Source: Catalinimonas alkaloidigena (GTDB lineage Bacteria > Bacteroidota > Bacteroidia > Cytophagales > Cyclobacteriaceae). From it: DNA of 64,000 bases. The number at the start of each line of letters is the position of its first letter. Within the stretch, counting starts at the first letter, position 1. Positions 23,532-36,065 of this stretch are shown piece after piece. The notes below the pieces were generated by a model. That model was not told the origin of the DNA, ran no database searches, and worked only from the letters and a program-made list of their open reading frames with translations. The translations under genes were made by a program, and so were the position numbers. Location: contig NZ_JAQFIL010000001.1 in assembly GCF_029504655.1 (NCBI RefSeq), positions 5,709,001 to 5,773,000 of the forward strand, given 5' to 3'.

Positions 23532-23666
23532 ATAAGTTTAGGTTGTTAGTATACTGCTAAAGCTAAATGAATGTAAAAAGAAAACCAATGAAGAAGCACC
23601 CAAAAGGTAGGGGATAGCAGAACATTTTTGTAAATTCAATATATACAGATGCCTAATACAACAAGC

Positions 23667-24695
23667 ATGAAAAAGCTCACCTACACCAGCCTTATTATAC
23701 TGATCAGTATTTTTATATTTCAAAATTTTGTCCCAAGGGCAAATGAAGACTCAGTCTTGCGAAGTGCACAGGCTTTCCTCAATTCACTCAATGAGAACCA
23801 ACTGGATAAAGCTACCTTTTCACTGGCAGATGAAGAACGCTACAACTGGAACTTTACCCCTGTTCCCCGGCAAGGACTTCCTATCAAAGAAATGACGGAT
23901 GCCCAGCAAGAAGCCGCTTTCTCCCTGATGAGGGCCTCACTCAGTGCTGAAGGCTACGAAAAGGCACAGCAGGTTAGAGAGCTGGAAGAAATACTGAGAG
24001 GAGTTGAAGGCCGTAGCCCCGATGATACTTACCGCGATCCCGACAACTATTATTTTACTGTTTTCGGAAAACCCGCGCATGATGAAGCCTGGGGGTGGCG
24101 CTTTGAAGGACACCATATTTCGCTCAATTTTTCCTCAGTCAGCGACGAAATTGTATCCGTTACACCTACTTTTTTCGGATCAAACCCTGCCAAAGTACCC
24201 TCAGGGCCTCGCAAAGGCTGGAGAATTCTGGAACCGGAAGAAGACCTGGGCAGAGCATTGGTAAAATCACTTAGTCAGGAACAGCAGAAAACAGCTTTGA
24301 TCGCAGAGGAAGCTTACCCGGATATAGTAACCAGTAATGATAAGGTCGCAAACATATCAAAGATGGAAGGACTTGCTTACAGCCAGATGACGCAAGAACA
24401 GCAGGAGCAACTGATACAACTGATTGAGGTATATTATAGTGTACATAAACCTGAGATCGCGAAAGAAGCTATGTTACGTATAAAAAAAGCGGGTTTGGAG
24501 AATATTCGTTTTGCCTGGGCAGGAAGTTATGAGGTAGGTGACAAACATTATTACCGTATCCATGGGCCGGGCTTTGTAATAGAATATGATAACACCCAGA
24601 ATGACGCCAATCATATTCACACCGTCATCCGTGATATGGAAAAAGACTTTGGAGAAGATATACTCAGTAAGCATTATGAGGAAGCACACAATTGA
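23667..24695 (+). CDS. Exported DUF3500 protein
   Basis: About 342 aa from the ATG at 23667, which places a signal peptide at the start (MKKLTYTSLIILISIFIFQN); an in-frame ATG at 23649 adds six residues. The DUF3500 pattern is clear: ATFSLADEERYNWNFTPVP, GLPIKEMTDAQQEAAFSLMR, DPDNYYFTVFGKP, WGWRFEGHHISLNF, AWAGSYEVGDKHYYRIHGP, and the terminal DANHIHTVIRDMEKDFG. The role of this family is not established. It is divergent from the epimerase gene. Confidence 0.88.
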   Translation: MKKLTYTSLIILISIFIFQNFVPRANEDSVLRSAQAFLNSLNENQLDKATFSLADEERYNWNFTPVPRQGLPIKEMTDAQQEAAFSLMRASLSAEGYEKAQQVRELEEILRGVEGRSPDDTYRDPDNYYFTVFGKPAHDEAWGWRFEGHHISLNFSSVSDEIVSVTPTFFGSNPAKVPSGPRKGWRILEPEEDLGRALVKSLSQEQQKTALIAEEAYPDIVTSNDKVANISKMEGLAYSQMTQEQQEQLIQLIEVYYSVHKPEIAKEAMLRIKKAGLENIRFAWAGSYEVGDKHYYRIHGPGFVIEYDNTQNDANHIHTVIRDMEKDFGEDILSKHYEEAHN

Positions 24696-24808: not shown

Positions 24809-27055
24809 ATGTTCAAAAATTTATTCTATACCATTCTCATTTTAGTTTCAATATTCTCCTGCCGCGAGGAGGAGGTCATCATCATACAACAGCCTGCTGA
24901 CCCAGTAATAGAAGACTCTACCAGTAATAGCAAGGTAAATATCAATGGCTATGTACAGAAAGGACCCTTTATCAACGGAACTACGTTGATCATTACCGAA
25001 CTGGATGACTCGCTGGCAGCCACCGGCAAAACTTTTACTACCCAGATCACTGATAATCGTGGTTCTTTCTTTATCAAAACCAGCCAGCTAGACTATACCA
25101 ACCTTCAACTCATTGCGACTGGCTTTTATTTTGATGAAGTCAAAGGTAAAAAGTCTGCCGCACAGCTCACGCTCTTTGCGCTGGCCGATGTCTCTACGGA
25201 TGCCAGAATTAATGTCAACATCCTTTCTCATCTGGAAAAAGACCGGGTGCTTTATCTTATCAATCAGGGCAAAGACTTTCTGGAAGCCAAAGCACAAGCC
25301 CAGGCTGAAATCCTGGCCATTTTCGGCATTGAAAAAGAAGATATGCAACATTCTGAGCTACTTGACATCTCACAGGCAGGTGAAGATAATGCTATTCTAC
25401 TTGCCATTTCTGCCATTCTACAAGGAGAGAATTCCGTAGCCCAACTTTCTGAATTACTGGCAGATATCAGCACTGACCTTAGGGAAGATGGTATGGTGAA
25501 CAGTGAGAAAATTCTAGAAGCCCTCAAACACAATGCCATCAATCTTGATCTTCCGGCTATCCGACAACATCTGGTAAAAAGATATGAAGAACTAAGCGTA
25601 GAGGCCAGCATCGCCAACTTTGAACAGTATGTAGACAGTGATGGGGATGGAATACTAAATAAAGATGATGATAATACGCCCGATGAATTTGTCTTCACTG
25701 CTGTAGAGAACGCTAAGCGTAATACTGTTTATCTCTCAGAAGTAGTTACTATAAGTGGATTACCCTATCCGGCAATCGCCCAGCTTAGTGAAGGTGAGCT
25801 GATTAAGAACGGAGAAAGCATAGGGCAAGATACTGCTTATGTCAGCGATGGAGATGAGCTGCAAATTAAAATGATTAGTCCTATAAGCTGGGGCGGACAG
25901 ATTTCTTCTCTACTCACTGTAGGAGATTATCAGACATCTTTTGCGCTGAGCAATGAGGCTTATCCCTGGGCGACTGCTGTTTCTGGCTACCTGCAGGTAG
26001 GACCTTTTTCCAATGGAGCTTCATTTGCTTTAACACAACTGGATTCTAGCCTCAGTAAAACTGATAAAAGCTTCAACACCCAAACTACCAACAGCCAGGG
26101 CGCTTATCAAAAGGGAGAAATAGAAGTAGATTACCCCTGGGCAATAGTTGAGGGAAAAGGGTATTACTATGATTTTATCAATACACAAACTTCAGAAAGT
26201 GAGATGCAACTCAATGCTTATACTGATTTGTCTACCAATGATCAAATTAATGCTAATGTGCTCACGCACCTGGAAGTACCAAGAGTAAAATACCTGATGA
26301 ATTCAGGACTAAGTTTCACTGAAGCCAAACAGCAGGCACAGAAGGAAGTGCTGGCAGTATTTGAAATTCAGGAAGACATTTCTACCCTCTCCGAGCATTT
26401 TGACATTACAAAGAACAATACAGAAGGAGCTATTCTGCTTGCCATATCTGCCATACTGCAAGGCTATGAAAGTACCGGAACTTTGCAGGAATTATTACGG
26501 AATATCAGCGAAGACCTGGAAACTGATGGTACGCTGGACAATCCGGTATTAGGTTCAGCTTTGATCAATAATGCCATGTATTTGAATCTGGCCTCCATTC
26601 GTACGACTGTAAATAACAAATACAAAGAATTAGGTAAAACCATTACTGTGGCTGATTTTGAGAAGTGTATAAAGGCTTTTATAAACACTACTGAATTTAC
26701 GCTGACGAAGAAAATTGAATATCCTGCTTCTGGAATATATGGAGAGAATATCTTAAGTGGTAAAAAAACTAAATATCCAAAAGAAACTCGTGAAATAGGT
26801 GCTTATGTAAATTTACCTTCTCATTCAAAATTAGACATCAGAATTACAGCGATCAATCCGAAAAATTTTTCCTTTGGAACCTTGGTAAGAGAAGGATGGA
26901 CTTACGTTGATTCAAAAAATGGATTAGTCATTTTGAGAGCAAACCAGACAGGGGAGATCAAGTTTCAGATAGACATTTTTGAAGATACCAAAATTGAAGT
27001 ATTTGAAAATGGAGCTACTACACCCACACGTATAATAAATATTGATGCTTATTAA
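24809..27055 (+). CDS. Array lipoprotein 1: two copies of the N-terminal module, no Kelch domain
   Basis: A 748-aa lipoprotein. The lipobox IFSC (Cys18) is followed at once by REEEV, an acidic tract like the Bacteroidota lipoprotein surface-export signal. Module 1 (residues ~48-275) begins NGYVQKGPFINGTTLIITEL and is helical later (LEKDRVLYLINQGKDFLEAK). A calcium-type loop follows (DSDGDGILNKDDDN). One Ig-like repeat spans ~290-390. A second, diverged module copy spans ~395-630 (SGYLQVGPFSNGASFALTQL). The last ~115 residues (from TEFTLTKKIEYPASG) match nothing in the neighbours, and their DNA is visibly A/T-richer. This replaces the Kelch propeller of the other three paralogues. The next gene starts 7 nt later. 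Function unknown; likely adhesion or glycan binding. Confidence 0.85.
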   Translation: MFKNLFYTILILVSIFSCREEEVIIIQQPADPVIEDSTSNSKVNINGYVQKGPFINGTTLIITELDDSLAATGKTFTTQITDNRGSFFIKTSQLDYTNLQLIATGFYFDEVKGKKSAAQLTLFALADVSTDARINVNILSHLEKDRVLYLINQGKDFLEAKAQAQAEILAIFGIEKEDMQHSELLDISQAGEDNAILLAISAILQGENSVAQLSELLADISTDLREDGMVNSEKILEALKHNAINLDLPAIRQHLVKRYEELSVEASIANFEQYVDSDGDGILNKDDDNTPDEFVFTAVENAKRNTVYLSEVVTISGLPYPAIAQLSEGELIKNGESIGQDTAYVSDGDELQIKMISPISWGGQISSLLTVGDYQTSFALSNEAYPWATAVSGYLQVGPFSNGASFALTQLDSSLSKTDKSFNTQTTNSQGAYQKGEIEVDYPWAIVEGKGYYYDFINTQTSESEMQLNAYTDLSTNDQINANVLTHLEVPRVKYLMNSGLSFTEAKQQAQKEVLAVFEIQEDISTLSEHFDITKNNTEGAILLAISAILQGYESTGTLQELLRNISEDLETDGTLDNPVLGSALINNAMYLNLASIRTTVNNKYKELGKTITVADFEKCIKAFINTTEFTLTKKIEYPASGIYGENILSGKKTKYPKETREIGAYVNLPSHSKLDIRITAINPKNFSFGTLVREGWTYVDSKNGLVILRANQTGEIKFQIDIFEDTKIEVFENGATTPTRIINIDAY

Positions 27056-27062
27056 TTTGGCT

Positions 27063-29660
27063 ATGCGAAACTTTATAATATCGACCTTAATATTATCAAT
27101 ACTTGCTGTCATTAGTTGCCGCGAGGATGAGGAAGTCATTGATACTCCTCCGGTGGTTGTGGATTCAACTCTGACAGTGGATATTTCCGGATATGTGCAG
27201 AAAGGACCATTCATCAATGGGACAGCGATTACGGTATCCGAACTAGATAAAAAACTGGTCACTACCGGAAAGAACTTCACTACCCAGATTGCTGACAACA
27301 AAGGTTCATTCAGCCTGAAAGGCATCAAGCTCAAATCCAATTTTGTACAGCTACAAGCCGATGGTTTTTACTTTGATGAAGTGAAAGGAGAAAAGTCCGC
27401 TGCCCAACTCACGCTCTTTGCCCTTTCCGATCTAAAAGATATTACAAACATCAATGCCAACCTGCTCTCACACATGGAAAGAACGAGGGTCATCTACCTG
27501 ATGCAGGAAGAAGAGAAAAGCTTTGTGGATGCTAAACAACAGGCTCAGCAGGAAATACTGACCGTCTTTGGGATTGAAAAAGAGGACATTCAACACTCTG
27601 AAGTTCTGGATATTTCTCAGGAAGGCGATGATAATGCTATCCTATTGGCAATTTCAGCCATACTACAGGCCGATAACTCTGTAGCCGAACTTTCAGAGTT
27701 GGTAGCCAATATCATCACTGACTTAAGAGAAGATGGCGTGCTTAATAGCGAAACCAGCAAAACCAAGCTTAGAGAGCAAGCCATGTCACTCAATTTGCCT
27801 CAGATCAGAGCTCATCTGGAGAAGCGCTATGCGGATATGGGTGTAGAAGCCAGCATCCCTAACTTTGAGCAGTATATTGACAGTGATGGAGATGGTATTC
27901 TGAATAAAGATGAAGATGATACTCCTGAGAACTTTGAATTTACCACGCAAAAAGATGTAGCCATTAATACCAAAGTTATTTCCAATGCTGTCAAGATAAG
28001 TGGGCTGAAAGAAGGAGGCACTGCCGATGCAGTCGTGCAGAATGGGCATATCCTTTTGAATGATAAGCTGCTAGAAGACTCGGTCGTCCAAATCAGGAAC
28101 GGCGATCAGCTACAACTTCAGCTTACTTCCAGTAGTGGTTATATGGACACGGTAAGCACTAAAATTACGATTGGAACACTAGTCAAAAGCTTCACCGCCA
28201 TTAGCGATGACTATACTCCTGATGCTTTCAGCTTTACTGCTCAAAAAGATGTAGCCATTGATTCTTTCTACACTTCCAATACCATTACCGTAAGTGGAAT
28301 CCCTTTCGCTACACCGCTCAAAATTGAAGGTGGAACCATGATCAAAAACGGTGAAGAACTGGAAAGCGACACTACATCAGTGAAAAACGGAGATGAACTG
28401 GCTGTCAAACTACTTTCCAGCAGTGAGTTTGAGGCCAACACCTCAGCGCTGGTAGATATTAATGGCATAAGTGCCAGCTTCAGCATTATTACTGACGATT
28501 ATACACCTGATCCATTCAGCTTTACCTCTATTGAAAATGCGGAAAGAGATTCAGTTTATACTTCTAATACCATTACTATCAGTGGACTTCCTCATGCTAC
28601 GCCAATATTTCTAGACTCTGGATCTTTATTCATTAATGGAAAAGTTGTATCAAACGAAAGTGCTACGGTAAAGGATGGAGATAAGGTTATGATACAATTG
28701 ACTTCTAAAAATGATTTTGATCATGTATCTAAAGCTTTATTGCAAATTAACACTTTTAATAGAACTTTTGAGGTTAGCACTCCCGACAATGTATGGCAAC
28801 AAATTACTGTTCACCCGGGAGGAATAGGTAATATAGAAATATCTGGCTTTGTGATTGATAATAAGATTTATATCGGCCCCGGAGACATAAACCGTAGATA
28901 CTTTTACGAATATAACCCTGGCACTAAACAGTGGACCCAAAAAGCCGATCTTCCAAAGATAATAGATGATCAAGGAGATGAAAATGAATTACGTGGAAGA
29001 GGCACAGGGTTTTCTGTCAATGGCAAAGGTTATCTATTTGGTCTTTATAATGGATGTGAATCCCACGCATTTTTTGAGTATGATCCGGATACCGATATAT
29101 GGACGAAAAAGGCGGATTATCCGGCTATGGGGGTGTGTGATATGGTATCTTTTTCTATAGGTGATTACGGATATATGGAAGGTTGGCGGTACGACCCATC
29201 TCATGATCTTTGGACAGAAATTGCAAAGACACCTTTTCTAGAAGAGAAACGTGCAGAGCTTCGTGCAGGTTTTTCCACCAAAGAAAAAGGTTATACAATT
29301 TTAAATAACAATTTCTGGGAATATGATCCTGGTACTGATACCTGGAAACAACTTAGTGATTACCCAGGAGAGCCATCATCTCGTCACTTCGTTGACTTCG
29401 TTATTGGTGAATACGCTTATGTAGGCAGTAGTGTATCTGCATATGACCTTGACCCTGAGAGAGAAACTATATATGCAGGATCACATGAGAAAACAAGTTT
29501 CTGGAGATATGAATTTAAAACTGATACCTGGAAAAAGATTGATATTGGCTCATTCTATTTTCAGTATACTTTCAATTGCAGCGCTTCAGAAAAAGGCTAT
29601 CATTGGAGAAATGATAACTGGTCTCCAAATATATACGAGTTCACCCCACCGCAGGAGTAG
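27063..29660 (+). CDS. Array lipoprotein 2: module, three Ig-like repeats, Kelch-like propeller
   Basis: The ATG at 27063 is preferred over the upstream TTG/ATG at 27042/27045, because it gives a normal lipoprotein signal (MRNFIISTLILSILAVISC, then REDEE). The protein has about 865 aa. Order: conserved module (~35-275, SGYVQKGPFINGTAITVSEL), calcium-type loop DSDGDGILNKDEDD, and three Ig-like repeats of ~90 aa (FEFTTQKDVAINT; FSFTAQKDVAIDS; FSFTSIENAERDS). A Kelch-like propeller follows (YEYNPGTKQWTQKADLP, FEYDPDTDIWTKKADYP, WEYDPGTDTWKQLSDYPG) and the protein ends YEFTPPQE. It is nearly identical over long stretches to lipoprotein 4. Probably surface-anchored by the acidic post-Cys signal; ligand unknown. 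Confidence 0.88.
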   Translation: MRNFIISTLILSILAVISCREDEEVIDTPPVVVDSTLTVDISGYVQKGPFINGTAITVSELDKKLVTTGKNFTTQIADNKGSFSLKGIKLKSNFVQLQADGFYFDEVKGEKSAAQLTLFALSDLKDITNINANLLSHMERTRVIYLMQEEEKSFVDAKQQAQQEILTVFGIEKEDIQHSEVLDISQEGDDNAILLAISAILQADNSVAELSELVANIITDLREDGVLNSETSKTKLREQAMSLNLPQIRAHLEKRYADMGVEASIPNFEQYIDSDGDGILNKDEDDTPENFEFTTQKDVAINTKVISNAVKISGLKEGGTADAVVQNGHILLNDKLLEDSVVQIRNGDQLQLQLTSSSGYMDTVSTKITIGTLVKSFTAISDDYTPDAFSFTAQKDVAIDSFYTSNTITVSGIPFATPLKIEGGTMIKNGEELESDTTSVKNGDELAVKLLSSSEFEANTSALVDINGISASFSIITDDYTPDPFSFTSIENAERDSVYTSNTITISGLPHATPIFLDSGSLFINGKVVSNESATVKDGDKVMIQLTSKNDFDHVSKALLQINTFNRTFEVSTPDNVWQQITVHPGGIGNIEISGFVIDNKIYIGPGDINRRYFYEYNPGTKQWTQKADLPKIIDDQGDENELRGRGTGFSVNGKGYLFGLYNGCESHAFFEYDPDTDIWTKKADYPAMGVCDMVSFSIGDYGYMEGWRYDPSHDLWTEIAKTPFLEEKRAELRAGFSTKEKGYTILNNNFWEYDPGTDTWKQLSDYPGEPSSRHFVDFVIGEYAYVGSSVSAYDLDPERETIYAGSHEKTSFWRYEFKTDTWKKIDIGSFYFQYTFNCSASEKGYHWRNDNWSPNIYEFTPPQE
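27195..28600 (+). repeat. Long duplicated segment, partner at 32296-33701
   Basis: Matching landmarks in lipoprotein genes 2 and 4 all lie exactly 5,101 bp apart: 27195/32296, 27771/32872, 28035/33136 and 28359/33460. Local runs of more than 60 identical bases occur (for example 27761-27822). Similarity stops near 28600/33701 and resumes only at the last codons and terminator. Confidence 0.85.
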
Positions 29661-29676
29661 GCTGATATTGCCTACT
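29656..29676 (+). terminator. Hairpin at the end of lipoprotein 2
   Basis: AGTAGGC and GCCTACT arms with a 7-nt loop overlap the stop codon. The same hairpin ends lipoprotein 4. There is no long T-run, so it may be an mRNA 3'-end stabiliser rather than a strong terminator. Confidence 0.5.
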
Positions 29677-29857
29677 TCTCTCTGAAGTGTATCCTGATAC
29701 ACATACATTCAAAACTAAAGTAAGAATGTATATTTCACATAGTGAGTTTCAGTTTTCATGCGTATAACTTATGTAAATAATCAAACAAATCACCCTTATA
29801 TTTACATATAAATACTTAACATACTATATTTATGGCGTATTATCATTAATATTTATT

Positions 29858-31900
29858 ATGAGCAAACACTTAATTTTACTAGCGCTTATATCAATTTCCC
29901 TGATTAGCTGCCATGAAGATGAAGTAAATGAGCCAGAAATAAAGGTCAACTTATCCGGTTATGTGCAGAAAGGCCCCTTTCTGAATGGCTCAACCGTTAT
30001 GATCATTGAACTGGATGATGCGCTTCAGCCCAGCGGAAGAACTTTTAGTACTGAAGTTCAGGACAATCAGGGTACATTTTCTTTTAGCGATATCAGCCTG
30101 ATTTCTCCTTACGTACAAGTGGTAGGTGAAGGATTTTACTATAATGAAGTAAAGGGTGAAGCGTCTTCTGCCCCCTTAACGCTTAAGGCATTGGTAGATA
30201 TCACGGATAAGTCAACGGTCAATCTCAATGTATTGCTGCATCTGCAGAGAGAAAGGGTAAGCTATCTGATAGAACAAGGAAAGTCATTTGAGGAAGCCAA
30301 AACACAGGCGATGCAGGAAATTATACACGTTTTTGGGATAGAAAAAAATACTGTTGCTGATGCCGAAATGATGGACATTTCCAAAGAAGGAGATGATCAT
30401 GCCATCCTGCTGGCCGTTTCTGCCACCTTACAGGGGAGGCTTACGGTAGCTGAGCTCTCCGAACTGCTGGCCGGTATCAGTACAGATGTAAAAGAAGATG
30501 GAAAACTGGACAGTGAAGCGATACAGGAAAAAATCCGTGCCGGTGCCACTTATGCCAGTGCAGGGGTTATCAGAGAAAATCTCACCGAACGCTACAAAGC
30601 GCTGGGAACAGATATTACCTTACCTGATTTTGAAAAGTATCTGGATAGTGATGGGGATGGAATCATCAACTCAGAAGATGACGAAATGCCGGAGGCATTT
30701 GCTTTTACCCCTGTCACCAAAGCTAAAATGGATACTTTTTATGTGTCCGAGACCATTATGCTGGAGGGGCTTCCCCATCCTGCAGAAAGCTGGCTGTCCG
30801 GAGCAGGCGCCCGCCTGATCGTCAACGGAGAAGAAAAAGAAAATGGAATTGCTCTTTCCGAAGGAGATGAGATAGCCATCAAACTGCCAACCGGTGATGA
30901 GTACTCCACCACCCATACTGCCGAACTGACGGTAGGAAAATTTACGACACAGTGGACAGTGACCACTGCTGCCAACCCGCTTCAGACGATAGGGTATCCC
31001 GGACATTCGGAATACTCCTTAACAACTTTTGTGTGGGGAAACAATCTGTTTGCAGGCCTGGGGGAGGACATTGGTTTTGCTGCCAGAAAAGAGTGGTATG
31101 CCTATGATACAAACGATGAGCAGTGGGGGCCAAAAGCTAACTTTCCTGGCAATGCTGATGTCAACATCAGGCTTTCTGCAAAGGATAAATTTTATGCCGG
31201 GCTGGGTGAAAATGGGCAGGCTATCTGGCAATATGATCCTGTTGCGGATACCTGGACAGCTATCGCCGACTTTCCTGGTCAGGCCACTACTTACTTTACC
31301 TATGCTAGTGGCAGTAAATGGTATGCCGGACTGGGAGATAATGGTAATGCCCTGTGGGAATATGACCCTGCTACCAACACCTGGTCGGCTATTGCTGATT
31401 TTCCGGCAGGAGCTTCAGCAATCCAAACTTTTACTATCCATGATAAAGTATTTGCCAGCCTTACTTTTCAGGAATCCGGAAAATCCGCTGAAATATGGCA
31501 ATTTGATACAGTGAGCAAATCATGGAAATCCGTAGGAAATGCCGAAGCCTCAAACTTTCTTTTTGCCATAGATGAAAAGGGGTATTTCGCCAGAGAAAAC
31601 TCCTCTGAGCTCCTCAGCTTTTCGCCTGCTACCGCTTCCTGGACCACTGTAACCACATTGCCCCAATCCAAACCCAAATTTGGTTTCTCAATGCAGGGCA
31701 AAGGCTATTTGTATTTTGATACTGACTTCAAAAATTCACTCTACGCCTATGACCTTGCCAGTAACACCATAACGCAAATCAAAGGGATTGAGCAGGAGTC
31801 CCGTATTTTTACTTTTGCCGTGACTGCTGAAAATTATGCTATTTTATGTACCAGCGTCAGCACTGCCATGGGAAGCTCATTTTATAGGTTTTCTCCTTAG
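29858..31900 (+). CDS. Array lipoprotein 3: module, one Ig-like repeat, Kelch-like propeller
   Basis: A 680-aa lipoprotein: lipobox LISC (Cys18) followed by HEDEV. The conserved module (~30-265) starts LSGYVQKGPFLNGSTVMIIEL. The calcium-type loop is DSDGDGIINSEDDE. There is a single Ig-like repeat (FAFTPVTKAKMDTFYVSETI). Kelch-like blades follow (WYAYDTNDEQWGPKANFPG, WQYDPVADTWTAIADFPG, WEYDPATNTWSAIADFP). It is more diverged than the 2/4 pair and visibly richer in G/C. It has its own 197-nt leader containing TATATTTACATA (29797-29808), an element repeated before lipoprotein 4. Probably surface exposed; ligand unknown. Confidence 0.87.
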   Translation: MSKHLILLALISISLISCHEDEVNEPEIKVNLSGYVQKGPFLNGSTVMIIELDDALQPSGRTFSTEVQDNQGTFSFSDISLISPYVQVVGEGFYYNEVKGEASSAPLTLKALVDITDKSTVNLNVLLHLQRERVSYLIEQGKSFEEAKTQAMQEIIHVFGIEKNTVADAEMMDISKEGDDHAILLAVSATLQGRLTVAELSELLAGISTDVKEDGKLDSEAIQEKIRAGATYASAGVIRENLTERYKALGTDITLPDFEKYLDSDGDGIINSEDDEMPEAFAFTPVTKAKMDTFYVSETIMLEGLPHPAESWLSGAGARLIVNGEEKENGIALSEGDEIAIKLPTGDEYSTTHTAELTVGKFTTQWTVTTAANPLQTIGYPGHSEYSLTTFVWGNNLFAGLGEDIGFAARKEWYAYDTNDEQWGPKANFPGNADVNIRLSAKDKFYAGLGENGQAIWQYDPVADTWTAIADFPGQATTYFTYASGSKWYAGLGDNGNALWEYDPATNTWSAIADFPAGASAIQTFTIHDKVFASLTFQESGKSAEIWQFDTVSKSWKSVGNAEASNFLFAIDEKGYFARENSSELLSFSPATASWTTVTTLPQSKPKFGFSMQGKGYLYFDTDFKNSLYAYDLASNTITQIKGIEQESRIFTFAVTAENYAILCTSVSTAMGSSFYRFSP

Positions 31901-31957
31901 CGCTATGCGGTTTCTACAATAAACATTCAAAGCCATAAGCCATGTTAATTCCTAGTA

Positions 31958-31986
31958 AAGCTCCTATCCTCATCAGGAGCTTTTTT
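31958..31986 (+). terminator. Intrinsic terminator of lipoprotein 3
   Basis: Arms AAGCTCCT (31958-31965) and AGGAGCTT (31975-31982) run into TTTTTTC. It separates lipoprotein 3 from the transcript of lipoprotein 4. Confidence 0.85.
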
Positions 31987-32157
31987 CATTTACTCTAAAA
32001 GATCAAATTGCTGGGCGCATCTTTTCTCCAAAACCTGTGAGATTCTTCCAACTCCAATTCAAGGAAGCTTAGCATACTTATTGGTAAATTTAATTTTTTT
32101 ACTATAAAAAATACATTTATGAGTATATTTACATAAAAAGGTAAATATAAACTTGTA

Positions 32158-34746
32158 ATGAAAATATTTATAAGCTCCACCCTACTATTCATTTTTTGCT
32201 TTTTCATCTTATTGTCCTGCCGCGAGGATGATGAGGTCATCAGTACACCACCCATTGCAACAGATTCTACCCTCACCATTGACCTTTCCGGTTATGTGCA
32301 GAAAGGCCCATTTATTAATGGGACAGCTATCACTTTGGGTGAACTCAATGAAAACTTACTAGCTACCGGTAAGAATTTCACTACTCAAATCAATGACAAT
32401 AAGGGAGCTTTCAATTTTAAGGAAGTACCGCTTAACTCCCCCTTTGTACAACTTCAGGCCAATGGCTTCTATTTTGATGAAGTGAAAGGGGAAAAGTCTG
32501 CTGCACAGCTCACCATCTTTGGCTTAGCTAAGGTTACTGATGCTACTTCGGTCAATGTCAACCTGCTTTCCTACCTTGAGTTTAGTAGGGTAGCCTACCT
32601 TATGCAGGAAGAAGAAAGTGCTTTTGAAGAGGCTAAGCAGAAAGCCCAAAAAGAAATTCTAACCATTTTCGGTATAGAAACTGACAGCATTGGCTATTCC
32701 GAAACGCTGGACATTTCACATGATGGCGATGATAATGCCATACTTCTGGCTATTTCAGCAATACTTCAAGCCAATAATACCGTAGCTGAGCTTTCTGAAC
32801 TTCTGGCCAACCTGATCACTGACCTCAAAGAAGATGGTGTGCTCAATAGCGAGACTACCAAAACCAAGCTTAGAGAGCAAGCCATGTCACTCAATTTGCC
32901 TCAGATCAGAGCTCATCTGGAAAAGCGCTATGCGGATATGGGCGTAGAAGCCAGCATTCCTAACTTTGAGCAGTACATTGACAGTGATGGGGACGGTATC
33001 CTCAACAAAGATGAAGATGATACGCCGGAGGATTTTACTTTTACATTACAAAATGATGTAGCCATCAATACCAAAGTTATTTCCAATGCTGTCAAGATAA
33101 GTGGACTGAAAGAAGGAGGCACTGCCGATGCTGTTGTGCAGAATGGGCATATCCTTTTGAATGATAAGCTGGTAGAAGACTCAGTAACGCAAGTAAAAAA
33201 CGGCGATCAGCTACAACTTCAGCTTACCTCCGGTAGCGATTATATGGACACGGTAAGCACTAAAATTACGATTGGAACTTTAGTCAAAAGCTTCACCGCC
33301 ATTAGCGATAATTATATTCCTGAAGCTTTCAGTTTCACGGCGCAGAAAGATGTAGCCGTTGATTCTTTCTACACTTCCAATACCATTACCGTAAGTGGGA
33401 TACCCTACGAAACACCGCTCAAAATTGAAGACGGAATCATCATCAAAAACGGTAAAGAACTGGAAAGCGACACTACATCAGTGAAAAACGGAGATGAACT
33501 GGCTGTCAAATTGCTTTCCAGCAGTGAGTTTGAGGCCAGCACCTCAGCGCTGGTAGATATTAATGGCATAAGTGCCAGCTTCAGCATTACTACCGATGAC
33601 TACTCTCCTGATCCTTTCAGCTTCACGCCTATTGAAAATGCTAAGAGAGATTCGGTTTATACTTCTAATACGATTACTATCAGCGGACTGCCTCACCCCA
33701 CTCCTATTGGAGTAGCACAGTTTTCTACAGATAATGGCATTATATATGTCAATGGAAATGAATACTTAGACAACACGTTCAGTCTGAAAAATGGTGATGA
33801 AGTATTTATAAAGATAAGTTCTTCTAAAGAGTTTTCCTCTATCACTAACGCTTCATTATCCATTAATAATATAATTAGCCTATTTCAAGTCACTACGGAG
33901 CAAAATCCTCTAAGAGTAATTGATAATAACATTCCTTTTAAATATCGCACTAATTATGATGGTATTTATCTAGATCGTTCTCTGTATATTATTACTGGAG
34001 ATAAACTTTATGAATTTAGTTTGACTGACAAAACCTGGAATAAAAAAGCTAATTACCCTGGAGGATATGTTGATTGGCTCACATTTTTTTCCATTAATAA
34101 CAAACTCTATGCTGGACTAGGGTGGGATGACCCTAAAGTAGCAATGGCCGATAAAAACTTTTGGGAATATGATCCCAATACCAATATTTGGAAAGAAGTC
34201 GCTTCGTTTCCTGGAAGAAAAAGGTACAGTGCAAAAAGTTTTGTAGTCGGTAAAAAAGCATATGTTGGCCTTGGAAACAGTGGTGATCCTAGTGATATAT
34301 TAAAAGATATTTGGGAATATAACCCTGAAACAAACCTATGGACTCAAATCACAAATTATCCTGGTAACATAAACAGTAGTAACGACAGGATAATAGCACA
34401 AATATTAAACTCAAATATGTTTATAGGTTCACCCATCGTTAATGAATCTTCTAGTACTTTTGAGTTAGAGTATTGGCAATATGATATAAATAATAATGCT
34501 TGGAAAAAAAGAGCGAATAACCATCATATTAATACTACTGCTAATCAAGGTTTTGTTCTTTATGATAAAGGATATATCTTAAGTAAAAACTCCCTTTCAT
34601 TTTATAATTACGATACCAATATTTGGAGTAAATCAATATATCTTCCTTTCTCAGATACTGATCTCAAAATAATCTTCACAAGCCCAAAAAGTATATATTT
34701 CATCAATGGCTATTCTCTATACGAATTCACCCCACCCCAGGAGTAG
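32158..34746 (+). CDS. Array lipoprotein 4: module, three Ig-like repeats, A/T-rich Kelch-like propeller
   Basis: An 862-aa lipoprotein: lipobox LLSC (Cys21), then REDDEV. The conserved module, the DSDGDGILNKDEDD loop and the three Ig-like repeats parallel lipoprotein 2 at a constant offset. The C-terminal propeller (WNKKANYPGGYVDW, WEYDPNTNIWKEVASFPG, WEYNPETNLWTQITNYPG) is different in sequence and visibly more A/T-rich. The last residues YEFTPPQE are again shared. TATATTTACATA at 32124-32135 is common to the leaders of genes 3 and 4. It is convergent with der, 11 nt away. Likely surface protein; ligand unknown. Confidence 0.88.
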   Translation: MKIFISSTLLFIFCFFILLSCREDDEVISTPPIATDSTLTIDLSGYVQKGPFINGTAITLGELNENLLATGKNFTTQINDNKGAFNFKEVPLNSPFVQLQANGFYFDEVKGEKSAAQLTIFGLAKVTDATSVNVNLLSYLEFSRVAYLMQEEESAFEEAKQKAQKEILTIFGIETDSIGYSETLDISHDGDDNAILLAISAILQANNTVAELSELLANLITDLKEDGVLNSETTKTKLREQAMSLNLPQIRAHLEKRYADMGVEASIPNFEQYIDSDGDGILNKDEDDTPEDFTFTLQNDVAINTKVISNAVKISGLKEGGTADAVVQNGHILLNDKLVEDSVTQVKNGDQLQLQLTSGSDYMDTVSTKITIGTLVKSFTAISDNYIPEAFSFTAQKDVAVDSFYTSNTITVSGIPYETPLKIEDGIIIKNGKELESDTTSVKNGDELAVKLLSSSEFEASTSALVDINGISASFSITTDDYSPDPFSFTPIENAKRDSVYTSNTITISGLPHPTPIGVAQFSTDNGIIYVNGNEYLDNTFSLKNGDEVFIKISSSKEFSSITNASLSINNIISLFQVTTEQNPLRVIDNNIPFKYRTNYDGIYLDRSLYIITGDKLYEFSLTDKTWNKKANYPGGYVDWLTFFSINNKLYAGLGWDDPKVAMADKNFWEYDPNTNIWKEVASFPGRKRYSAKSFVVGKKAYVGLGNSGDPSDILKDIWEYNPETNLWTQITNYPGNINSSNDRIIAQILNSNMFIGSPIVNESSSTFELEYWQYDINNNAWKKRANNHHINTTANQGFVLYDKGYILSKNSLSFYNYDTNIWSKSIYLPFSDTDLKIIFTSPKSIYFINGYSLYEFTPPQE

Positions 34747-34762
34747 GCCGCATTTGCCTACT
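34742..34762 (+). terminator. Hairpin at the end of lipoprotein 4, overlapping the der stop
   Basis: AGTAGGC and GCCTACT arms with a 7-nt loop. The right arm contains the complement of the der stop codon, so the element belongs to both convergent genes. It lacks a T-run. Confidence 0.45.
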
Positions 34763-36065
34763 TCTGCCTGAAGAATATGTTCAAAGGCACGCCTTCAAAG
34801 TTAAAGTGTCCTCTTAGTTTATTCTCCAGGTAACGTTTATAGGCGTTCTTTACATATTTGGGATGGTTGCAGAAAAAGGCAAAAGAGGGTGTTCTGGTCG
34901 GTAATTGCGTAATATACTTGATCTTAATATGCTTACCTTTGACCGAAGGCGGTGGATAATGCTCAATATCTTTACCCAGCAGGTCATTTAGTTTGGAAGT
35001 ACTGATACGTCGCTGGCGGTTTTCATAAATCTCAGAAGCTTTTTCTATCGCCTGAAACACTCTCTGTTTGGTGGCCATAGAGGTAAAGACAATGGGGATA
35101 TAGTTAAATTCGCCCAAGCGCTCATCAATCTGCTTTTTGTATGCCAGCGCTGTTTTGGTATCTTTCTCTATCAAATCCCATTTATTAACCAAAATCAGTA
35201 TGCCTTTCCTGTGTTTGTCGGCGAGCTGCACGATATTCATATCCTGCGCTTCCATCCCCCTTTGTGCATCCAGCATGATGATGCAGATGTCGCTGTCTTC
35301 CAGTGCCTGTACAGAGCGAATAGTGGAGTAAAATTCTATATTATCCGAAATCTTGGCTTTCTTCCGTAGCCCTGCGGTGTCAATCAGGATAAAATCCTTT
35401 CCGTACAGCTTATAACGAGAATGTAATGCATCGCGCGTAGTACCGGCAACATCAGTAACGATGCTACGCTCCTCTCCCAAAAGCACATTCAGAAAAGACG
35501 ATTTGCCTACATTGGGCCGGCCCAAAATAGCCAGCCGGGGAATGCCCGCTTCCGGATCCTCATCATCATCGGCCGGAAAGTGGGAAACGACGGCATCCAG
35601 AAGATCACCGGTACCTGAGCCGCTTACGGATGAGATAGGAAAAACTTCTCCCAGACCTATGCCATAAAACTCAGAGGCCATAAACGAACGCTCATGGTTA
35701 TCCGCCTTATTGGCGACGATATAAAGAGGCTTCTGGGTACCCCGCAGAATATTGGCAAAGCTCTCATCCAGATCTGTGATGCCGGTTTCACAGTCTACCA
35801 TAAAAAGAATTACGCTAGCCTCATTGATCGCCAACTGCACCTGCGTACGTATTGCACCCTCAAAAATATCGTCAGAATTGGCTACATAACCTCCGGTATC
35901 AATTACTGTAAAGTGCAGTCCATTCCATTGTCCATAACCATAATGCCGGTCACGGGTCACGCCACTCACATCATCCATAATGGCCTTGCGTTGCTCAATT
36001 AAACGGTTGAACAGCGTTGACTTCCCTACATTGGGCCTACCTACGATCGCTACTATATTTGACAC
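34758..36065 (-). CDS. der: Ribosome biogenesis GTPase Der
   Basis: A tandem-GTPase needed for 50S subunit assembly. The 435-aa protein has a first G domain with IVGRPNVGKSTLFNRL, DTGG and NKAD. The second G domain, near residue 178, has ILGRPNVGKSSFLNVL, DTAGLRKK and NKWD. The C-terminal KH-like domain ends with PTRTPSFAFFCNHP and GVPLNIFFRQK. It lies downstream of era on the same strand, separated by an inverted-repeat element, and is convergent with lipoprotein 4. Confidence 0.98.
   Translation of the reverse strand: MSNIVAIVGRPNVGKSTLFNRLIEQRKAIMDDVSGVTRDRHYGYGQWNGLHFTVIDTGGYVANSDDIFEGAIRTQVQLAINEASVILFMVDCETGITDLDESFANILRGTQKPLYIVANKADNHERSFMASEFYGIGLGEVFPISSVSGSGTGDLLDAVVSHFPADDDEDPEAGIPRLAILGRPNVGKSSFLNVLLGEERSIVTDVAGTTRDALHSRYKLYGKDFILIDTAGLRKKAKISDNIEFYSTIRSVQALEDSDICIIMLDAQRGMEAQDMNIVQLADKHRKGILILVNKWDLIEKDTKTALAYKKQIDERLGEFNYIPIVFTSMATKQRVFQAIEKASEIYENRQRRISTSKLNDLLGKDIEHYPPPSVKGKHIKIKYITQLPTRTPSFAFFCNHPKYVKNAYKRYLENKLRGHFNFEGVPLNIFFRQK

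Follow-up and report, generated by a model that had tools for sequence, protein, structure and literature searches.

Why would a bacterium keep, side by side, several lipoprotein genes that begin alike and end differently? The question is raised by a locus in Catalinimonas alkaloidigena, where four plus-strand genes (g1–g4) with no internal stops fill positions 24809–34746 of the window, i.e., the stretch of 64,000 nucleotides that was analyzed here. They are flanked by a DUF3500 gene on the left (23649–24695, plus strand) and by der, encoding the EngA GTPase, on the right (34758–36065, minus strand). A preliminary description of this DNA had listed four consecutive plus-strand lipoprotein genes, each with an acidic signal after the Cys, a module of about 240 amino acids, a DSDGDG loop and one to three Ig-like repeats, and all of these features were recovered from the open reading frames, the alignment and the profile.

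Anatomy of the four lipoproteins

The g1 gene (24809–27055, plus strand; 748 amino acids) encodes two modules (residues 41–285 and 389–622), with a single Ig-like repeat between them (286–388), and a tail (623–748). The genes g2 (27063–29660; 865 amino acids), g3 (29858–31900; 680 amino acids) and g4 (32158–34746; 862 amino acids), all on the plus strand, each encode one module followed by Ig-like repeats and a Kelch head, which spans residues 576–865, 376–680 and 581–862, respectively. By our own segmentation of the alignment, there is one Ig-like repeat in g1 and in g3, and three in g2 and in g4. The start of g2 is the ATG at 27063; an alternative TTG at 27042 falls within g1.

The base module, of about 240 amino acids, is present in five plus-strand copies, two in g1 (24929–25663 and 25973–26683) and one each in g2 (27177–27908), g3 (29945–30673) and g4 (32278–33009), the first g1 copy and those of g2–g4 being delimited by the module alignment and profile. 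A profile search of the whole genome (7.92 Mb in three contigs) identified exactly five copies, all in g1–g4, and a degenerate pattern for the core gave four forward matches in the genome versus none with the reversed-pattern control. The core reads GYVQKGPF at residues 47, 43, 34 and 45 of g1, g2, g3 and g4, and GYLQVGPF at residue 393 in the second module of g1. The copies are 41–65% identical to the first one, and 54 columns are invariant across all five. Each gene has a single DSDGDG loop, at residues 276, 273, 263 and 275 of g1–g4, and the second module of g1 is without it. The longest DNA block common to the four genes surrounds this loop; it comprises 132 nucleotides, at 25559–25690 (plus strand) in g1, and the other genes are 64–76% identical to this copy.

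The preliminary description could not assign the module to a characterized family, and it indeed appears to be without a name in the libraries searched; nor was a description of the family found in the open-licence PMC literature, as judged from title and start of abstract. Matches of the module profiles to OspC, MO25 and other proteins in the PDB had E-values of 0.014 to 1.4 and were taken as chance, and the entry 9i0d, which stands for the non-heme domain of PgcA, was absent from the PDB matches of the profiles A1 (E ≤ 1), A2 and A5 (E ≤ 10). PgcA of Geobacter sulfurreducens, in the parts of the sources available to us, has heme domains in the place of the Ig-like repeats and propeller of g1–g4 (PMC5732950, PMC11520253); a sequence match between PgcA and the module was not found, the identity being 13%.

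Kelch propellers had been proposed for three of the genes, and the Pfam family PF13415 matches the heads of g2, g3 and g4 with 43, 47.9 and 32.4 bits, above the cut-off of 22. By their fold, these heads belong to the Kelch beta-propeller superfamily, and in structure the g3 head is matched best by galactose oxidases. Among the matches listed, the closest propellers outside the module family are in Bacteroidota Kelch proteins secreted by the T9SS (PF18962), which carry a C-terminal sorting domain, whereas g1–g4 have a lipobox but not this domain. Export through the T9SS by means of a known sorting domain was rejected, with zero families of this kind in g1–g4 at E ≤ 1. Weak matches to phage families were also seen, of the Ig-like repeats of g2 and g4 (27900–28700 and 33000–33800) to phrog_4924, a family named short tail fiber protein, at about 42 bits, and of the g2 and g3 heads to phrog_12615.

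For g1, the Pfam search gave zero families at E ≤ 1 and Foldseek with the whole model retrieved generic multi-Ig chains. The distal part of g1 had been described as a second module copy and an unrelated tail, of which the former holds. The tail, a beta-sandwich of about 126 amino acids (26675–27052, plus strand), is homologous to the ends of single-module relatives such as P0073, P0074, P0075, P0077, P0103 and P0110, and is thus a domain of the family rather than an unrelated sequence.

All four proteins have, after a signal-peptide-like stretch, a lipobox-like Cys followed by a polar or basic residue and acidic residues (CREEEV in g1, CREDEEV in g2, CHEDEV in g3 and CREDDEV in g4). A lipobox-like Cys precedes the module in 95 of the best 120 of 287 relatives, some of the others being truncated, and two or more acidic residues are found at positions +2 to +6 in 86 of these 95. 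The residues of the relatives resemble the export signal of Bacteroidota surface lipoproteins, which has been tested experimentally according to the part of the source available (PMC5080379). Judging from this signal, the g1–g4 proteins are probably exposed at the cell surface.

In the intergenic regions, the 12-mer TATATTTACATA is located at 29797–29808 and 32124–32135, 50 and 23 nucleotides before the starts of g3 and g4. This level of match, with one mismatch, was equalled in 4 of 100 shuffles, the 12-mer is absent from the five related loci checked, and it is perhaps a shared promoter element. A terminator-like hairpin with a T run between g3 and g4 (31957–31986), seen by eye and not in the scanner output, suggests separate transcription of g4.

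Relatives of the module and the decoupling of base and head

A genome scan with g1 alone gave no match, and the module alignment as query yielded 32 loci. The protein relatives considered here are the best 120 of 287 matches in a protein search and the best 120 of 234 in a further one. The module was identified in 20 of 390 genomes sampled from the GTDB family, 10 of 390 from the order and 3 of 395 from the phylum, counting the genome of the window itself, and one of the family-sample matches (G020) is weak (E 5e-4). Records that carry the labels Deltaproteobacteria, Desulfosudis, Fibrobacteria and Anaerolineae (L036, L025, L031 and L015) also contain module copies, which may have arrived there by transfer or by ancient spread, or may reflect contigs mis-binned in MAGs.

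A Pfam survey of 20 module proteins of other genomes, drawn from 18 of the 32 loci, identified SusD-like heads in three proteins (L029, L030 and L032), FISUMP heads in three (one in L011 and two in L016), laminin-G lectin heads in three (one in L025 and two in L028), Lcl_C heads in two (L012 and L020), an SBBP propeller in one (L014) and FN3-type domains alone in one (L009), with zero Pfam families in the remaining seven. Six further members without Kelch heads have DUF285, which we take to be an LRR-like repeat, in three cases (L053, L054 and L127), SprB repeats with FISUMP in one (L128) and no Pfam family in two. The module is thus best regarded as a promiscuous N-terminal base for typical extracellular heads. 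The SusD fusions with an N-terminal module are at L029:9824–11761, L030:4557–6857 and L032:9875–11629; no obvious SusC was seen beside them on inspection of the plain ORF list.

Base and head evolve decoupled. We compared 53 relatives with one near-full module, more than 640 amino acids and a Pfam Kelch family (P0034, with no Kelch family, was left out); the comparison was also made in a motif-filtered form with 51 proteins. Over 1378 pairs, the Spearman correlation is 0.70 between the two halves of the module and 0.09 between module and head, a value reached by 139 of 1000 permutations, and the nearest partner agrees for 9 of the 53 proteins when module and head are compared, versus 24 of 53 in the control with the module halves. 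For the 14 pairs in which the modules are 0.90 or more identical, the median head identity is 0.33 (range 0.23–0.79); for the 315 pairs with modules at 0.70–0.75, it is 0.29. The g2 protein and P0031 of Catalinimonas sp. 4WD22, for example, are 0.91 identical in the module and 0.29 in the head, and the values for g4 and P0050 are 0.92 and 0.37. P0050, which has the base of g4, has a head identity of 0.62 to P0051, the base of which is only 0.62 identical, and P0010 and P0011 are 0.97 identical in the tail and 0.87 in module 2. Among 57 proteins longer than 520 amino acids, and solely for pairs with a head identity of at least 0.5, the head is closer than the module in only 2 of 25 pairs.

The g3 protein follows a different course, in that its module and head are 75% and 73% identical to those of P0081. 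Its head is conserved and behaves as a uniformly diverging ortholog.

Recombination and turnover at the DUF3500–der site

The g2 and g4 genes share a gene-conversion tract that covers residues 205–498 of g2 (27675–28556, plus strand). Their amino acid identity is 0.70 in the module before the tract, 0.90 inside it and 0.34 after it, and the numbers of identical fourfold sites in the successive segments are 19/48, 84/111 and 14/37. In the genome of the window and in 4WD22, paralogs are 0.90 and 0.91 identical in the first Ig repeat versus 0.74 and 0.74 for orthologs, whereas in the modules it is the orthologs that are closer (0.91 and 0.92 versus 0.77 and 0.74 for paralogs), which points to concerted evolution of the stalk. 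Conversion of the base was independently repeated in a pair of genes in L016 (Fulvivirgaceae JP3-4), with an identity of 0.94 and 160/179 fourfold sites in the base versus 0.68 and 49/91 in the head (p 1.4e-10). The L016 heads resemble ordinary diverged paralogs on converted bases.

Two relatives appear to be mosaics. In P0005, a g2-type module (0.88) is followed by an Ig repeat and a second module that are both of the g1 type (0.77 and 0.78), and in P0017 a g1-type module (0.97 to P0003) is followed by an Ig–Kelch part that is nearest to P0020 (0.57–0.60). Both break at the border of module and Ig repeat, just past the DSDGDG loop, in a region that coincides with the DNA block common to g1–g4. 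They are located on short metagenomic contigs (4977 and 3149 bases, respectively), and assembly chimeras are therefore possible.

A contrast between base and end is also seen between genomes. The two modules of g1 are 0.91 and 0.85 identical to those of its ortholog in the same-genus genome G001 and the tail 0.28, a divergence that exceeds that of every control ortholog. The 35 control genes outside the array (more than 70% coverage, one non-syntenic weak match of 0.35 included) have a median identity of 0.82 and a lowest syntenic value of 0.41. At fourfold sites, the g1 modules (108/183 identical) are above the controls (1460/3964; p 3e-9), and the base was thus probably shared after the genomes diverged. 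A weaker repeat of this pattern was obtained for L006 and L007, with 43/83 fourfold sites in the base versus 330/902 (p 0.009) and identities of 0.85 in the base, 0.55 in the Ig part and 0.31 in the head. Between species, fourfold sites approach saturation, and an old replacement then leaves much the same trace as fast divergence. With the g2 head or the g1 tail as query, the genome yielded no further close copy, which leaves silent copies of the two unsupported, and in the search for a donor of the g4 head the nearest relative is only 43% identical. With silent sites near saturation and donor searches empty, replacement and very fast divergence are inseparable for most heads.

Uniform divergence of orthologous propellers, named in the preliminary description as what would speak against it, was rejected for g1, g2 and g4 on the basis of the fourfold-site contrasts and the head and module identities, but it does describe g3. 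The constant base with variable heads that had been proposed thus applies to g1, g2 and g4 and not to g3, and diversification by duplication is supported, together with mosaic recombination.

The site itself is fixed. In each of the six genomes with both flanks read (the window, G001, G002, L006, L007 and L124), the Kelch-type locus is bordered by DUF3500 and der, with four copies in the window, one each in G002, L006 and L124, one plus a remnant in G001, and one plus a broken copy in L007. The intact copy in G001 is of the g1 type, whereas of the Kelch-type copy, a g2-type gene, only a remnant in two broken pieces is left immediately 3' of the g1 ortholog (L047:9837–10569), which represents decay of the array. 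The second array gene in L007 (11021–13486), a MAG, is interrupted close to both of its ends, which may reflect decay or an assembly error. The head in G002 has Kelch family matches below the Pfam cut-offs only. In a seventh locus (L005), DUF3500 adjoins the module gene and the contig ends there, and four non-Kelch module genes of the family (L125–L128) are located away from the site. In nine genomes that lack the module, DUF3500 is adjoined, within the stretch read, by neither der nor the gene for an N-acylglucosamine 2-epimerase, which is found near the site. The position of DUF3500 beside the array in seven loci and elsewhere in these nine genomes may indicate a functional link or mere shared descent.

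Proposed surface recognition and its rivals

We favor, as on balance probable, the hypothesis that g1–g4 are surface binding lipoproteins with recombining bases and diversified heads at one fixed site. Such proteins would be outer-membrane lipoproteins flipped to the cell surface by the Bacteroidota lipoprotein export signal, with the module as pedestal, the Ig-like repeats as stalk and the propeller or the g1 tail as recognition head. The DUF3500–der locus would remain in place while its content turns over by gene duplication and loss. Homologous recombination in module and stalk would homogenise the paralogs, carry bases between relatives and join different bases to different heads, and selection would maintain the diversity of the heads. 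The principle is known from flagellin, a surface protein with a constant anchor and a recombining variable region. The likeness is in the conserved anchoring part, the diverse exposed part and the recombination via the former, whereas g1–g4 differ in forming a multi-gene lipoprotein array of pedestal, stalk and head at a single site. Evidence against this hypothesis comes from the even divergence of g3, the empty donor search and the small number of pairs (2 of 25) in which the head is the closer part.

According to one alternative, heads are not exchanged at all: being weakly constrained, they would diverge fast, and the bases would be kept alike by gene conversion and occasional transfer. 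Conversion of the base in g2/g4 and L016, the failure to find donors for the g2 and g4 heads and the g1 tail, and the broken copies in G001 and L007 are all consistent with this alternative. However, the heads remain open and Kelch-like, that of g3 is conserved, and heads are shared discordantly, as in P0050 and P0051 and in the tails of P0010 and P0011, and we consider it unlikely on the whole. A serious rival, although in our view less likely than not, is nutrient capture, in which the heads would bind a glycan, siderophore or vitamin and hand it over to a TonB-dependent transporter, and would differ because the substrates differ. BtuG and XusB of Bacteroides, as described in the parts of the sources available, are seven-bladed propeller surface lipoproteins encoded beside genes for TonB-dependent transporters (PMC6143338, PMC13142918). 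They are similar to g1–g4 in the lipid anchor with its export signal, and their propellers are proposed or shown to bind ligands at the cell surface; the passages in question describe neither a module nor an Ig stalk. The SusD-like domains fused to the module, the galactose oxidases matched by the g3 head and the epimerase gene also agree with a role of the SusD, BtuG or XusB kind. On the other hand, the immediate neighbors at six loci are DUF3500 and der and not a transporter gene, and congeners with almost the same base would not be expected to carry such unrelated-looking heads if the substrate were stable.

Such extreme diversity of heads on a conserved base between congeners, along with expansion and decay at one site, would suit receptors or decoys for phages, grazers or competitors, or tags for kin recognition, which change to escape or to mark identity. 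Set against this, no PADLOC model matched, and the phage likeness of the Ig and Kelch parts is weak and limited to two families, only one of which is named as a short tail fiber; we think that this explanation is rather improbable. Similarly speculative, and in our view improbable as a whole, is a wider scheme in which the module would be a general outer-membrane display pedestal across distant phyla, PgcA-like in Geobacter and in the g1–g4 family in Bacteroidota, and the DUF3500–der site in the Catalinimonas lineage a dedicated diversification locus where recombination would join pedestals and recognition heads in new pairs, with phages, grazers or rivals as the attackers.

Our findings draw attention to an unnamed base domain in Bacteroidota lipoproteins, to which SusD, lectin, FISUMP, LRR-type and propeller heads are joined. 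They also point to a compact locus in a fixed position, where comparisons among strains give direct access to the diversification of heads. Should these heads serve in recognition, the locus would help to explain why strains of marine Bacteroidota differ in their interactions with phages, grazers, surfaces or rivals.
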